From assembly GCF_016862515.1 (NCBI RefSeq), contig NZ_BONC01000030.1, forward strand, positions 35,714 through 99,713: a stretch of DNA of 64,000 bases, read 5' to 3'. The position numbers and the translations under genes were made by a program. Of the stretch, positions 19,109 through 25,580 are shown in pieces (the first letter of the stretch is position 1; each line of letters starts with the position of its first letter). This DNA comes from Asanoa iriomotensis. GTDB lineage: Bacteria > Actinomycetota > Actinomycetes > Mycobacteriales > Micromonosporaceae. The notes beneath the pieces are model-generated. The model searched no databases. It had not been told where the DNA came from and saw only the letters and a program-made list of their open reading frames with translations.

Positions 19109-19843
19109 GTGAGGGCTCTTCTCACCTCGTCCGGGATCAAGAACGGCAGCATCCACGACGCGCTGGTCGACCTGCTGGGCAAACCGATCGCCGAGGCCAA
19201 CGCCCTGTTCATCCCGACCGCCATCTACCCGTTCCCCGGCGGGGCCGGCGCGGCGTGGCGAGCGATCACCGGCCAGGGCCCGTCGCCGCTGGCCGGGCTG
19301 GGCTGGAAGTCGTTGGGTGTCCTGGAGCTGACGGCGCTGCCGAGCATCGAGGAGGCGGCCTGGGTGCCGACGGTCCAGGAGGCCGACGCGCTGCTGGTCT
19401 GGGGCGGTGACCCGCTGTTCCTAGCCAACTGGATGCGGCGCTCCGGCCTGACCGCTCTCCTGCCGACGTTGCGCTCGGAGGCGGTCTACGTCGGGGTGAG
19501 CGCCGGCAGCATCGCCGCCGCCCACACCTTCGTCGAGACCTACGTCGATCCGCCCCGGGGCAGCGACGGGCCACTGAAGTCCGAGGACGTCGTCTTCAGC
19601 ACGCCTGAGGGCGACGTCGACCGGATCCTGGTCACCGGGCAGGGTGCGGGGCTCGTCGACTTCGCGGTGATCCCGCACCTGGAGCACCCGCACCACCTCG
19701 ACGCGTCCCTGGCCAACGCGGAGAAGTGGGCGGCGCGGATTCCCGCACCGACTTACGCGATCGACGACGAGAGCGCCATCAGCGTGGTCGACGGCACCGC
19801 CACGGTCGTCTCCGAGGGGCATTGGAGGTTGTTTGAGCCGTGA
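19109..19843 (+). CDS. Peptidase E-like (S51 family) protein
   Basis: This 244-residue class I glutamine-amidotransferase-fold protein has the S51 nucleophile elbow GVSAGS (Ser131) and an upstream WGGDPLFLANWMR segment typical of dipeptidase E relatives. Peptidase E cleaves Asp-Xaa dipeptides and cyanophycinase relatives share the fold. The GTG at 19109 is chosen because AGGAAGG precedes it at good spacing; upstream in-frame residues are not protein-like. It converges on the methyltransferase gene with a 6-base gap. Confidence 0.85.
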   Translation: MRALLTSSGIKNGSIHDALVDLLGKPIAEANALFIPTAIYPFPGGAGAAWRAITGQGPSPLAGLGWKSLGVLELTALPSIEEAAWVPTVQEADALLVWGGDPLFLANWMRRSGLTALLPTLRSEAVYVGVSAGSIAAAHTFVETYVDPPRGSDGPLKSEDVVFSTPEGDVDRILVTGQGAGLVDFAVIPHLEHPHHLDASLANAEKWAARIPAPTYAIDDESAISVVDGTATVVSEGHWRLFEP

Positions 19844-19849
19844 CCCCAG

Positions 19850-21181
19850 CTATCGCGCGACCCGGCAGTCGATGACGACAAGACCGGACCCGGCCGGATG
19901 GACCGCGGCGGTGGTCAACCCGGCGCGTGCGGCCAGCGCGCTGTAGTCCTCGACAGTGCGTTCGCGACCGCCCGCCAGAACCAGCATCCGCAGGTCCATC
20001 TCCGCGAACGTCGCCGGGTCGTCGCCAGCCGTGCCGTGCGACTCGACGATCACCACGCGCCCGCCCGCACCGCCCGCACGAGTGGCTGAACCGCCTGCGC
20101 CAGCGGCCGCGGCGCGTCGGTCGGTGGCTGCGCCCCGTTGGTCGGTAGGCGCGCCGCGTTCCTCCGCGCCTGCGCTTCGTTGGTCGCTGGGCGTGCCGTG
20201 TTGGTGGGTGGCGGCGCCGTGTTCCTCGGTGTCCGCGGGGTGATGGTCGGTGGGGGTGCCGTGTTGGTGGGTGGCGGCGTCGCGTTCCTCCGTGTCCGCG
20301 CCGTGTTGGTGGGTGGCCGCGCCGTGTTCCTCCGTGTCCGTGCCGCGTTGGTCGGTGGGCGCGCCGTGTTCCTCCGCGTCCGCGCGGGCGGCCTCCGCGC
20401 AGCGGCGCAGGATCGTGGTTGCCTGCTCGTCGGGCCAGTCGTGCAGGACCGCGCACAGCAGGTAGACGTCGCCCCCGGCGGGCAGTGGGTCGAAGAAGCT
20501 CTGGCCCGCGAACTCGCACCGGTCGGCCAAGCCCTGCTCGGCCAGGAAAGCGCGCCCCCGTGCCACCGTGCCCGGCAGGTCGAGCAACGTCGCACGCATG
20601 TCAGGGTTCGACCGCAGCACCTCGGCCACCAGCGAACCGGTGCCGCCGCCAACGTCGACAAGGTGGCGCACCCCCGACCAGTCGATCGCCCCGGCCGCCG
20701 TGGTCCGGGTCGAGGACGCCATCGAGGCGTCGAACGACGCCGCCATGTCCGGGTGGGCGGCGAGCCAGTCCCAATACGGCGTGCCGAATGCCGCCTCCCA
20801 CGCCGGCATGCCCGTGCGGATCGTGTGCAGCAGTTCCGTGAACGCCAGGTCCATACGGCCGCCGAACTCGTCCAGGGCGAACGCGGTCCGCATGCCGGCC
20901 GGATGGTCGGACCGCAACAGCGACGACACGTCGGTGAGCGCGAACTCGCCCGGCGACGGCTCCGCGAACACCCCATGGCCCGCGAGGTGCCGCAGCAGCC
21001 GGCCCAGCGCGTCCCTGTCGGTGCCGGACCGCGAAGCGAGATCCTCGACGCGCGAGACCCCTCCGGCGATCAGGTCGGCCAGGCGCAACGTGGCCGCCAC
21101 CCGGACCGCCATCGGCGTCACCAGGTCGGCCAGTGGGGCCAACCGCCGCCAGGCTTCCTCGGATGAGGAGGAGGAGCTCAC
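19850..21181 (-). CDS. O-methyltransferase (PF00891-type) with a long heptad-repeat insertion
   Basis: This 443-residue SAM-dependent methyltransferase has the dimerisation/winged-helix N-terminal domain (about 12-95), the SAM motif LVDVGGGTGSLVAEVL (174-189), and the DxxLLCAVLHDWPDEQA segment (238-254) with the catalytic-region His. Relatives continue directly from RRC.AA to RVVIVE; here about 100 residues are inserted. Residues 267-357 are 13 tandem heptads rich in Glu, His, Thr, Asp and Gly, followed by a Gly/Ala-rich linker, and the fold resumes at RVVIVESHG (375). Such enzymes methylate small aromatic or polyketide hydroxyls. The substrate is unknown and no biosynthetic neighbours are present. 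Confidence 0.85.
   Translation of the reverse strand: MSSSSSSEEAWRRLAPLADLVTPMAVRVAATLRLADLIAGGVSRVEDLASRSGTDRDALGRLLRHLAGHGVFAEPSPGEFALTDVSSLLRSDHPAGMRTAFALDEFGGRMDLAFTELLHTIRTGMPAWEAAFGTPYWDWLAAHPDMAASFDASMASSTRTTAAGAIDWSGVRHLVDVGGGTGSLVAEVLRSNPDMRATLLDLPGTVARGRAFLAEQGLADRCEFAGQSFFDPLPAGGDVYLLCAVLHDWPDEQATTILRRCAEAARADAEEHGAPTDQRGTDTEEHGAATHQHGADTEERDAATHQHGTPTDHHPADTEEHGAATHQHGTPSDQRSAGAEERGAPTDQRGAATDRRAAAAGAGGSATRAGGAGGRVVIVESHGTAGDDPATFAEMDLRMLVLAGGRERTVEDYSALAARAGLTTAAVHPAGSGLVVIDCRVAR
20111..20383 (-). repeat. Thirteen 21-bp tandem repeats (in-frame heptads) inside the methyltransferase gene
   Basis: The repeat encodes alternating heptads of two types, A/T-D-T-E-E-H-G and A-A-T-H-Q-H-G, with variants such as APTDQRG, TPTDHHP and TPSDQRS. 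All units are 7 codons, so copy changes stay in frame. AATHQHG occurs three times unchanged and APTDQRG twice, consistent with recent slippage or unequal exchange. The encoded stretch is acidic and histidine-rich and probably disordered. Confidence 0.88.
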
Positions 21182-21300
21182 CTTCCCAAGCTAGCCCGCT
21201 GTCGTTTCTGTACAAGACGGCCGGCGGGCGGGGTTCGTAGCATGGGGCACGGCGTGCGGCACGGGGCGTGCGTCTGACGAGAACGAGGAGAGAAGCAACC

Positions 21301-21879
21301 ATGCGCGAACTGGTCTACACCGGCTTCATGTCGCTTGACGGCGTTGTCGATTCGCCCGGCGGTGGGCCGGGGGAGGAGCACCGCAGCGCCGGTTGGGTGT
21401 TCAAGGACCTCGAGTTCGTACCCGAGGTCTGGTCGATCAAGGGTGAGGAGCTCGCGGAGACCTCCGCGCTGCTGTTCGGGCGGCGCAGCTACGAAGCGTT
21501 CGCATCGACCTGGCCCGACTCCGAGGACCACATCAGCTACAAGGAGCTGCCCAAGTACGTCCTGTCGAGCACGCTGGCCGACGACGCGATCGTCGATGGC
21601 TGGGGTCCGATCACGATCCTCCGCTCGGTCGACGACCTCGTCGCTCTCAAGAAGGGCGAGGGCGGTGCGATCTTCATCCACGGCAGCGCCGACCTCGCCC
21701 GGCGGCTGTCCGACGCGGGGCTGATCGACCGCTACCACCTGCTGGTCTTCCCGGTTCTGCTCGGCGGCGGCAGCAGCTTGTTCACCGACACTGACAAGGC
21801 CAAGCAGATGTTGCGCCTGCGCGACTCCGAGGCCTATTCCAACGGCATCCTCAAGCTGATCTACGACGTCGTCAGCTGA
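21301..21879 (+). CDS. Dihydrofolate reductase/RibD C-terminal-like protein
   Basis: This 192-residue protein matches the RibD C-terminal (dihydrofolate reductase-like) superfamily: MRELVYTGFMSLDGVVDSPG at the start, ALLFGRRSYEAFASTWP (about 56-72) and IFIHGSADLARRL (about 121-133) for the NADPH-binding part. These stand-alone proteins are NADPH-dependent reductases of mostly unknown substrate. GAGGAGAG lies upstream of the ATG. It overlaps the convergent AraC-type gene by 19 bases. A paralogue lies at 52777. Confidence 0.88.
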   Translation: MRELVYTGFMSLDGVVDSPGGGPGEEHRSAGWVFKDLEFVPEVWSIKGEELAETSALLFGRRSYEAFASTWPDSEDHISYKELPKYVLSSTLADDAIVDGWGPITILRSVDDLVALKKGEGGAIFIHGSADLARRLSDAGLIDRYHLLVFPVLLGGGSSLFTDTDKAKQMLRLRDSEAYSNGILKLIYDVVS

Positions 21880-22571
21880 TCCAGCGGCATGGAGATCGCG
21901 CCGCCGGTGCCTGAGCGGAGCTGGCGGACCGAGCGGCCGACGTACCGGCGCAGCCCGCGGATCAGGTGCGGCTCGTCGAAGTAGTCCAGTTTGGACAGCA
22001 CGTCCGCGACCGGCGTGCCGGCGGCCAGCAGCGTCGCCGCGTCGCGGGCGCGCTCGATCTGCCGCACCGCGCCCTGGGTCATCCCGGTCGCCGTCCGGAA
22101 CCGGCGTTCGAGGGTCCGGGCCGAGACGTCGGGGCGGTAGCCGCGGCGCACGTCGGTGACGAGCGGGTCGCGCACCACGGCACCCGCCCGCACCAGACGC
22201 GCGACCAGGGCCTCGACGTCGTCGGGGCGCGGCGTCTCCCAGCGGGAGCCGTCGAGCCAGAACGCCCGGTGCGTGGTGTCGGGCAGCACGGCTCCGCCGT
22301 CGACGAGGTCGGGGGTGGGCACGGCCCGCAACGAGGTGCCGACCGCGAAGTCGACGCCGACGAACGTCGCCCCCTCGGGTACGGGTGCCGTGCTGGTACG
22401 CGTCTCGGGACCGGTGATGCTCGCGTACGCCCGCCCCGCCTGCTGGTGGAACACCAGGCCCCACGACACCGCGGCGACCGACGTCATCTCGGTGACGTCG
22501 TCGCTCGTGCACGTCCACACGCTCGAGATCCACGGCGAGTCGGACGCCCGCGTCTCGAACAACAGTGCCAT
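21861..22571 (-). CDS. AraC-family transcriptional regulator
   Basis: This 236-residue protein has a cupin-like N-terminal sensing region (VWTCTSDDVTEM, TFVGVDFAVGTSLRAVP) and a C-terminal AraC DNA-binding domain with SARTLERRFRTATGMTQGAV (about 155-174) and a second helix-turn-helix around FDEPHLIRGLRRYVG (about 203-217). I start it at 22571, where the family-like N-terminus MALLFETRASD begins; the frame extends further upstream without support. It diverges from a RidA gene 54 bases away, which is its most likely target. Confidence 0.87.
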   Translation of the reverse strand: MALLFETRASDSPWISSVWTCTSDDVTEMTSVAAVSWGLVFHQQAGRAYASITGPETRTSTAPVPEGATFVGVDFAVGTSLRAVPTPDLVDGGAVLPDTTHRAFWLDGSRWETPRPDDVEALVARLVRAGAVVRDPLVTDVRRGYRPDVSARTLERRFRTATGMTQGAVRQIERARDAATLLAAGTPVADVLSKLDYFDEPHLIRGLRRYVGRSVRQLRSGTGGAISMPLDQLTTS

Positions 22572-22625
22572 CGGACCAGGATAAACTGGGGATTCGCGCT
22601 CCACATACGGGGGATTGGAGCTGCT

Positions 22626-23066
22626 GTGACGATTCAAAAGTCGACGTTTGATCTGGGCGTGCCGTGGGAGGACGCCGCCGGTTACGCGCAGGCGGTGATG
22701 GTCGACGACACGCTCTACATTTCGGGACAGCTGGGTCATCGCAAGGACGGCACGCTCGTGTCGCCGGCGCCCGACGGCGCGCAGAGTGTCGACCAGTCCG
22801 TCATGCGGGACCAGATGGCCCAGACGTACGCGAACGCCCGCGAAGTTCTGGCGCACTTCGGCTGCACGTTCGACAACGTGGTCGAGGAGGTCGTGTTCGC
22901 GACCGACATCGGTGCGGCGCTGGCGGTGATGCGCGGGGTCCGCGACGACATCTACACCGACGTCGCCAAGCCGAAGGTCACCAACACCACCGTCGGCGTC
23001 ACCTCGCTCGCATTGCCGGGTCAGGCTGTGGAGATCAAGTTCGTCGCACTCAGGACACGTGGATGA
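22626..23066 (+). CDS. RidA/YjgF-family protein
   Basis: This 146-residue protein is a RidA-family enamine/imine deaminase-like protein. It has YAQAVMVDDTLYISGQLGHR near residue 20, the central DNVVEEVVFATDI and the terminal SLALPGQAVEIKFVAL. RidA proteins hydrolyse reactive enamines formed by PLP enzymes. The usual Arg near the active site (in R-x-C-V or R-A-x-V contexts) is not obvious, so it may belong to a non-deaminating subgroup. GGAG precedes the GTG start. It overlaps the convergent oxidoreductase by 17 bases. Confidence 0.85.
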   Translation: MTIQKSTFDLGVPWEDAAGYAQAVMVDDTLYISGQLGHRKDGTLVSPAPDGAQSVDQSVMRDQMAQTYANAREVLAHFGCTFDNVVEEVVFATDIGAALAVMRGVRDDIYTDVAKPKVTNTTVGVTSLALPGQAVEIKFVALRTRG

Positions 23067-24032: not shown

Positions 24033-24581
24033 GTGTCCGTGGTTGATCCAGGAGCGTCCCGGCTCGCGCTGCGTGTCCCCGAGGCGGACGACCGGGATCG
24101 GTTGTTCGCTCTCTACTCGGATCCGCTGGTCTGGGGCCCGGATCCGGTTTCGCGGCACGAAGAGCCGGCACAGACCCAGGAGATGATCGAGCGCTGGCGG
24201 GCGGCCTGGGACCGCGACGGCCTCGGCATGTGGACGGCGTGGGCCGGTGCCGAGTTCGTCGGGATCGGCGGCTGCGCGGTCCGCGCCGGCGTGGCGTGGA
24301 ACCTCGGCTACCGGCTGCGCCCGCCGTGCTGGGGCCGCGGCTACGCCCAGGAGATCAGCGCGGCCGCGATCGCGGCGGCCCGGGCGCGCAACCCCGCGCT
24401 GCCAATCACCGCCTACCTGGTCGAAGGCAACGACCGGTCCCTGCGTACGGTCGAGCGGACCGGCCTGAAGCAGGTCTGGCGCGGCCCGGACGCGGGCAAC
24501 CCGAACCCGACCGCGACAAGGCTGCTCTACAGCGACCAGCCACTGTCGCCGAGCGTGCTGACCGCCTTGACGGTGGCCTGA
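24033..24581 (+). CDS. GNAT-family N-acetyltransferase
   Basis: This 182-residue RimJ/RimL-type GNAT has RLALRVPEADDRDRLFALYS at the N-terminus, the acetyl-CoA pyrophosphate-binding region LRPPCWGRGYAQEIS (about 94-108) and NDRSLRTVERTGLKQVWRG (about 130-148), the conserved N-x-x-S-x-R-x-x-E-x-x-G pattern. Substrates are alpha-amino groups, antibiotics or small amines. Its stop directly precedes the GTG of the BtrH-like gene, so they are co-transcribed. Confidence 0.88.
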   Translation: MSVVDPGASRLALRVPEADDRDRLFALYSDPLVWGPDPVSRHEEPAQTQEMIERWRAAWDRDGLGMWTAWAGAEFVGIGGCAVRAGVAWNLGYRLRPPCWGRGYAQEISAAAIAAARARNPALPITAYLVEGNDRSLRTVERTGLKQVWRGPDAGNPNPTATRLLYSDQPLSPSVLTALTVA

Positions 24582-25580
24582 GTGATCATCGAACGGGTCG
24601 ACTTCCCTGGCGGCCGGCACTGCGAGACCACCACGCTGGGCGCCCTGCTGCGGCACGCGGGCGTCGACCTGTCCGAGCCGATGCTGTTCGGCCTGGGTGC
24701 GGGCCTGGCCTTCATCTACTGGGACGCGAAGAACATGGCCTTCCCGTTCCTCGGCGGCCGCACCAAACCGCTGGAGATCGCCCGGACGGTGGCGGACGGA
24801 CTGGGCCTCACACTGGAGGTACGGGAGACCGCGTCACCGCGCACGGCCTGGCGACACGTCGAATCCGCGCTGGCCGACGGCCGCCCGGTCGGCCTGCAGC
24901 TCGACTGCTACCACCTCGACTACTTCACCACGAAGGTCCACTTCGGTGGCCACGTCGTCGCCATGTACGGCTACGACGACAGCCACGCCCACCTGGTCGA
25001 CACGGCCCAACAGGGCGGCACGGTGACGACCACGCTGGCGAGCCTCGAACGCGCCCGCGCCGAACGCGGCCCGATGACCGCCCGCCACCTCTCCTTCACG
25101 ATCGCCGCCCCGGCCGAGACGACCGCCCTGGAAAGAGCGATCCGGACGGCGGTCCGCGCCAACGCGCACGCGTTCCTCAACCCGCCGATCGCCAACCTCG
25201 GCCACCGCGGCATCGCCAAGGCCGCCCGCCAGGTCCGCGGCTGGCTGGACCGGGCCACCGACCCGGCCCACGACCTCCCGCTGGCCGCGACCCTGATGGA
25301 ACGCGGCGGCACCGGCGGCGCCCTCTTCCGCGCCATGTACCGCGACTTCCTCGCCGAGGCCACCACCATCGTCGACGACGACAACATAAGCCACGGTCAC
25401 CGGCTGTACGCCGAGATCGCCCCGCTCTGGACCGAGGTCGCCGACCACGTCACCGCCGCCGGCCGGACGGGCGACCCCCACCACCTCACCCAGGCCTCGG
25501 CAATCCTGAGCGACCTGGCGGAACAGGAGCGCCGAGCCATGGAAACCCTGCGGTCAACCCGCGAAGCGGGGGGTAGGTAG
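24582..25580 (+). CDS. BtrH N-terminal domain protein
   Basis: This 332-residue protein matches the BtrH_N/DUF4872 architecture: GGRHCETTTLGALLRHAG with the candidate nucleophile Cys14, a middle GLQLDCYHLDYF segment, and GGHVVAMYGYDDSHAHLVDT (about 127-146) supplying the His and Asp expected for a papain-like acyltransferase or peptidase fold. In butirosin biosynthesis BtrH transfers an acyl side chain from a carrier protein to an aminoglycoside. No carrier protein or sugar gene is nearby, so this role cannot be assumed here. It begins immediately after the GNAT stop. Confidence 0.82.
   Translation: MIIERVDFPGGRHCETTTLGALLRHAGVDLSEPMLFGLGAGLAFIYWDAKNMAFPFLGGRTKPLEIARTVADGLGLTLEVRETASPRTAWRHVESALADGRPVGLQLDCYHLDYFTTKVHFGGHVVAMYGYDDSHAHLVDTAQQGGTVTTTLASLERARAERGPMTARHLSFTIAAPAETTALERAIRTAVRANAHAFLNPPIANLGHRGIAKAARQVRGWLDRATDPAHDLPLAATLMERGGTGGALFRAMYRDFLAEATTIVDDDNISHGHRLYAEIAPLWTEVADHVTAAGRTGDPHHLTQASAILSDLAEQERRAMETLRSTREAGGR

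Follow-up and report, generated by a model that had tools for sequence, protein, structure and literature searches.

A lineage-specific, probably nearly neutral in-frame minisatellite expansion in the catalytic domain of an Asanoa O-methyltransferase

Here, we analysed a stretch of 64,000 nucleotides from the draft genome of the soil actinobacterium Asanoa iriomotensis (contig NZ_BONC01000030.1; hereafter, the window), in which an O-methyltransferase gene carries an array of 21-bp units inside the part that encodes its catalytic domain. The 105-residue insertion that comprises this array is most likely a lineage-specific in-frame minisatellite expansion, nearly neutral and tolerated in a surface loop of a methyltransferase that probably still works. 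The case is a clean one: the insertion amounts to a whole number of units, the loop is short in about 200 relatives, the core is constrained and the insertion evolves nearly neutrally, so that the growth of a protein segment out of a repeat can be followed directly.

By its relatives, the protein is of the natural-product class I type, and it looks like an ordinary cytosolic enzyme. The listed start of its open reading frame (ORF) is GTG, and the corresponding database entry, P0001, begins 13 residues downstream. In a profile search, the ORF matched PF00891 at 134.8 bits (curated cut-off, 22.3) and PF08100 at 41.6 bits (cut-off, 25.6), and the protein possesses the conserved SAM-site and HDW motifs as well as the fold that define the PF00891 family; the GGGTG SAM-binding motif is intact. 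The closest solved relatives by sequence include TnmH (6clw), NcsB1 (3i53) and DnrK (1tw2). The features are collected in Table 1.

Table 1. The methyltransferase gene and the parts of its expanded loop (window coordinates)
Feature	Position	Strand	Remarks
O-methyltransferase gene, 443 aa	19850..21181	-	PF08100 dimerisation and PF00891 catalytic domain
GGGTG motif, intact	20636..20650	-	alignment
HDWPDEQ motif, start of the helix entering the insertion	20423..20443	-	sequence and model
Complete insertion relative to homologues, 315 bp, 105 aa, 15 heptad lengths	20069..20383	-	residues 267-371; loop length 134 vs 29 aa
13 recognisable 21-bp units (heptads 0-12)	20111..20383	-	43-100% pairwise identity
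Pair of degenerate heptads rich in Ala and Gly (AAAGAGG, SATRAGG) between array and residual linker	20069..20110	-	required for the 105-aa excess
RVVIVE core strand, resuming past the insertion	20042..20059	-	model strand 374-380 (residue 1 omitted in numbering)

The original prediction, made from the window alone, of 13 in-frame 21-bp units within an O-methyltransferase catalytic domain proved exact, down to the coordinates and the domain (PF00891): lying on the minus strand between HDWPDEQ and RVVIVE, the array covers precisely 13 x 21 bp and keeps the reading frame. Tandem Repeats Finder assigned it scores of 246 at period 63 (75% matches) and 189 at period 21 (65% matches), with 0% indels, whereas the top score over 100 dinucleotide-preserving shuffles of the window was 86; with head-to-tail units of more than 10 bp that stay in frame and recur beyond chance, the array is a coding minisatellite. 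Thirteen is the right number of recognisable units but not the full length of the insertion: given that the loop exceeds that of relatives by 105 residues, or 15 x 7, heptads AAAGAGG and SATRAGG have to be counted into it (MAFFT places the whole one residue earlier, at 266-370). The copies, which had been described as near identical, turned out not to be so, as the pairwise identities in Table 1 and the modest matching at period 21 attest; the sole identical pair consists of heptads 5 and 8, and the longest exact repeat inside the array is 24 bp. Three classes of units can be distinguished, namely, E-type (heptads 0, 2, 4, 7 and 10), THQHG (3, 5 and 8) and TD/SD-type (1, 6, 9, 11 and 12), with the two main types separated by several G/C changes. 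The alternation of acidic and THQHG units, also part of the original prediction, holds at the start of the array, whereas further on the order is nearer to a three-unit period. Two-unit blocks offset by three units are up to 93% identical, and four-unit blocks offset by two are 89% identical.

The divergence of the copies, with no exact repeat longer than 24 bp, makes both misassembly and rapid change of copy number unlikely. An artefact of assembly, which the original prediction allowed for and for which the draft state of the genome (187 contigs) might speak, appears extremely improbable: exact internal repeats stay under the usual k-mers and reads, so that there is little for short-read assembly to collapse, the units are codon-phased and free of indels, and the two members of the P0001 cluster come from separate contigs, of which the longest measures 450,694 bp as against 99,713 bp for the contig of the window. 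A second assembly thus probably holds the insertion-bearing protein. Copy number had been expected to vary on the premise of near-identical copies, which is wrong. That the array is a contingency locus, with strain-dependent copy number tuning the enzyme, would accord with the reported variation of intragenic repeats in other bacteria (PMC2639597; PMC12817950), and, with two members of the P0001 cluster, strains may exist to compare; nevertheless, the units are far from near identical and impure arrays are reported to be far more stable (PMC3899988), so that we consider this scenario very unlikely.

Relatives were indeed found to have almost nothing at the site, as predicted originally. In a set of 212 sequences, made up, with some redundancy, of 120 database proteins (P0001 included) and 92 ORFs of 87 loci, the loop was measured from HDW through the strand VVIVE; it comprises 29 residues in 203 sequences, 19 to 32 in eight and 134 in P0001; the shortest one, of 19 residues (L118), belongs to an ORF that stops short, without the strand. 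No measured sequence other than P0001 exceeds 32 residues in this loop, which sets the protein apart from its closest known counterparts, the class I O-methyltransferases of natural-product pathways with PF00891 and PF08100 domains (TnmH, NcsB1, DnrK and RdmB, 1qzz), and a separate alignment singles out residues 266-370 as the only stretch at which at most 2 of 119 relatives are aligned. An orthologue (P0008, 77% identical), from a genome labelled Asanoa sp. WMMD1127 (G005), lacks the insertion, as does the 75% identical orthologue from genome G342; at the junction, P0008 reads CAEAAGPSGHVVIIE, and the window protein reads CAEAAR, followed by the 105 residues and AGGRVVIVE.

Wider searches gave the same picture. 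The methyltransferase has a match at an E value of 1e-60 or better in 3 of the 6 Asanoa genomes, the window's own included, and at 1e-40 in 183 of 354 genomes of the family; among the matches listed from the latter search, the window's locus alone breaks off at query residue 264, with all others extending to residue 314 or further. No independent insertion at the same site was detected among the 212 sequences or among the matches listed from the 354 genomes, and none of the measured or listed homologues carries the insertion, contrary to the case of a fixed insertion common to all of them that the original prediction had entertained. A long match in Longimycelium (L121) was considered as a second insertion and rejected, being composed of two methyltransferase ORFs, each with a 29-residue loop. 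When the insertion itself was searched against about 5.8 billion proteins, by a method limited to proteins that are alike in length and have exact words in common, P0001 was the sole return among 3238 candidates scored. In the six Asanoa genomes, the runner-up matches reached E values of 1e-4 over 54 bp (DNA) and 0.007 (protein); there is no second convincing copy at either level, so that the insertion is not a dispersed or mobile repeat. Within the reach of these searches, the insertion is lineage-specific.

In the AlphaFold2 model, the insertion is a coil between an unbroken helix and strand; over model residues 286-369, pLDDT stays under 50 almost throughout, and the 105-residue segment is thus predicted to be disordered. 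The helix (250-270) and the strand (374-380) are retained; the model of the repeat-free orthologue has the matching elements at 247-261 and 266-272 and a pTM of 0.65, compared with 0.67 with the insertion. Both models are only moderately confident near residues 90-160 and directly past the strand. The length of the loop may be tolerated because of its position at the start of the strand, the end that would lie away from the substrate-facing helix after the strand. In DnrK, the known activity-changing insertion, S298, maps to the substrate-proximal region R1 (PMC9976750); R1 follows the strand, whereas the insertion in the window protein precedes it. The methyltransferase is likely to be little affected by the added 105 residues.

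The expansion might mark a dead enzyme, since 105 residues inserted into a catalytic domain would, as a general expectation, often do harm. However, the core of the protein is ordinarily conserved, with 1 deviation at the 120 columns whose conservation among the other sequences reaches 95% or more, against a mean of 1.71 in 119 relatives, of which 89 have at least one; the HDW and GGGTG motifs are intact and the ORF contains neither a frameshift nor a stop. Decay of the gene is, accordingly, very unlikely. The dN/dS of the core is 0.27 against the G005 orthologue and 0.28 against that of G342, values that span the whole divergence rather than only the time after the insertion.

Within the array, the all-pairs pN/pS is 1.12, compared with 0.84-1.82 in the remaining five frames. 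Relative to the consensuses of the three unit subtypes, there are 8 synonymous and 18 nonsynonymous differences, a nonsynonymous fraction of 0.69, where 0.73-0.79 is expected. The amino-acid changes among units are thus near neutral, with room for weak selection on amino acids, given the small count (26) and the non-independence of the copies. Codon usage in the insertion also stands apart from that of its surroundings. The third-position GC content is 77%, as against 91% for the gene outside the insertion, and all 6 of the Gln codons are CAA, a codon that accounts for 360 of 5437 Gln codons (6.6%) when 393 coding-like ORFs from this genome are pooled, although the six are in part copies of each other and hence not independent. 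These CAA codons are copied ones that have not yet been adjusted to genome usage, i.e., a codon fossil.

What speaks for a selected function of the acidic, histidine-rich loop, be it metal binding or the tethering of a partner or substrate carrier to the methyltransferase, is the composition of the insertion. Its 105 residues include 11 His, 20 Asp or Glu and 8 Arg and lack V, I, L, M, F, W, Y and C altogether, and position 4 of the heptad is D, E or H in 13 of 13 units. The missing residues, however, could reflect base composition, since the strand has just 8 T in 315 bases. Position 6 alternates between His (7/13) and Arg (6/13), and THQHG is present in 3 of the 13 units. Given also the near-neutral nonsynonymous changes and the failure of searches with the insertion to recover any other protein that convincingly shares it, we regard a selected function as unlikely. 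Among the three options proposed originally, namely, metal binding, a tether and neutral expansion, the near-neutral unit changes, the predicted disorder and the conserved core favour the last.

We propose that the nearly neutral expansion began with a 21-bp unit that was likely multiplied by slippage during replication or by unequal recombination. Copying of one to three units at a time would have taken place on different occasions, and growth in two- and three-unit steps would fit the offset block identities. Events that broke the frame may have been removed by selection; this part of the scenario is weakened by a study of M. tuberculosis, which attributes the in-frame character of repeat changes in pe_pgrs genes to the mechanism itself (PMC12817950). 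A profile of the 13 units, scanned over 1019 places in the gene, found no in-register candidate for the founder unit outside the array: the best score, 3.6, falls elsewhere in the gene, heptad 13 ranks 10th, 355 places outscore heptad -1 and 287 outscore heptad 15.

The methyltransferase appears to be one of several Asanoa proteins with loops grown by in-frame repeats, as suggested by the loop differences in an EF-G-like GTPase, a FUSC transporter and an FAD monooxygenase. Ten array-bearing proteins were scanned against Pfam and these three, picked by eye, were compared across the genus, counting segments from ten residues before the array to ten after it; two are genome-specific expansions and one is strongly length-variable. 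In the EF-G-like GTPase (L283, G001:C1:3015248-3020452; gene also L258, 18182-18310), the segment is 68 residues long in G001 and 22-25 in five other Asanoa genomes, the array consisting of about four 10-residue in-frame repeats within the GTP-binding domain match. In the FUSC transporter (L305, G000:C1:182845-188304; gene also L180, 5209-5371), it is 86 residues in the window's genome (G000), where the repeat is degenerate and in-frame, and 20 in the five others. The loop of the FAD monooxygenase comprises 71 residues in G005 (L295), 53 in G000 (L296) and 184, filled with repeats, in G001 (L297, L301). All three resemble the methyltransferase in having degenerate in-frame repeats at one loop, and the first two also in the short loops of five other genomes, although their repeat sequences and unit lengths are unrelated to those of the methyltransferase; by contrast, the monooxygenase loop differs in all three orthologues compared, which makes it a good subject for the study of loop-length evolution. 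A broader functional reading, under which a working Rossmann-fold enzyme grew, by DNA slippage alone, an acidic, histidine-rich, disordered arm without known relatives that gained a capacity to capture metal or a partner, at a loop serving class I methyltransferases as a natural insertion port and with the same growth in other Asanoa enzyme loops, strikes us as unlikely.

Tandem repeats themselves are not rare in the window's genome, as 33 arrays score at least 100 in a 1.198-Mb sample and nine of them outscore the methyltransferase array. A repeat load specific to the genus was considered and rejected: arrays scoring at least 100 number 27.5, 77.5 and 57.5 per Mb in three Asanoa genomes and 90 and 85 in genomes of two other genera, in samples of 0.2-1.2 Mb each (the larger contigs of the draft in the case of G000) in which the arrays are clustered. 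Under a filter devised for this analysis, 16/33, 19/31 and 9/23 of these arrays lie in coding-like frames in Asanoa and 7/18 and 8/17 in the two other genera of the family. By eye, many of the other coding arrays are located in tails, linkers or repeat-domain proteins.

Bacterial coding minisatellites are already known (PMC2639597; PMC3899988), above all in surface proteins, and one of 105 residues within a catalytic domain looks uncommon rather than new in kind. The intragenic repeats of Legionella pneumophila, the units of which are given as 58.5-100% identical and which occur in enzymes including RecG and CopA2, share with the window array a unit length divisible by three, a preserved frame and imperfect units (PMC2639597). 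According to a review, coding minisatellites are prevalent among extracellular or cell-surface genes (PMC3899988), whereas the window array lies within the catalytic domain of a seemingly cytosolic enzyme. Among the titles listed in a literature search of open-licence PMC papers, no paper dealt with a repeat within the catalytic domain of a methyltransferase, and Asanoa and methyltransferase did not occur together. Our results suggest that the lengthening of ordinary enzyme loops by in-frame minisatellites is more frequent among high-GC actinobacteria than has been appreciated. The loop ahead of the core strand, after the HDW helix, probably tolerates changes in length, in a methyltransferase fold that is in wide use, and could serve for tagging or engineering provided that activity is retained.

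In the window, the methyltransferase gene is flanked by an S51 peptidase (on the 19109-19843 side) and a RibD_C/AraC pair (on the 21298-22856 side), the latter kept, by eye, in 4 of 5 relatives from the genus. The S51 peptidase and the RibD_C neighbour are apart from each other in the six genomes that were searched, and in G005 and G342 the methyltransferase is located away from both, so that its position is not conserved and synteny is uninformative. Several further O-methyltransferase matches (L002-L006, G000:C14:76606-97433) lie within about 21 kb of a single contig in the same genome, perhaps in a biosynthetic cluster. A BtrH_N and DUF4872 protein resembling butirosin BtrH is encoded at 24582-25580, adjoining a GNAT acetyltransferase at 24033-24581.
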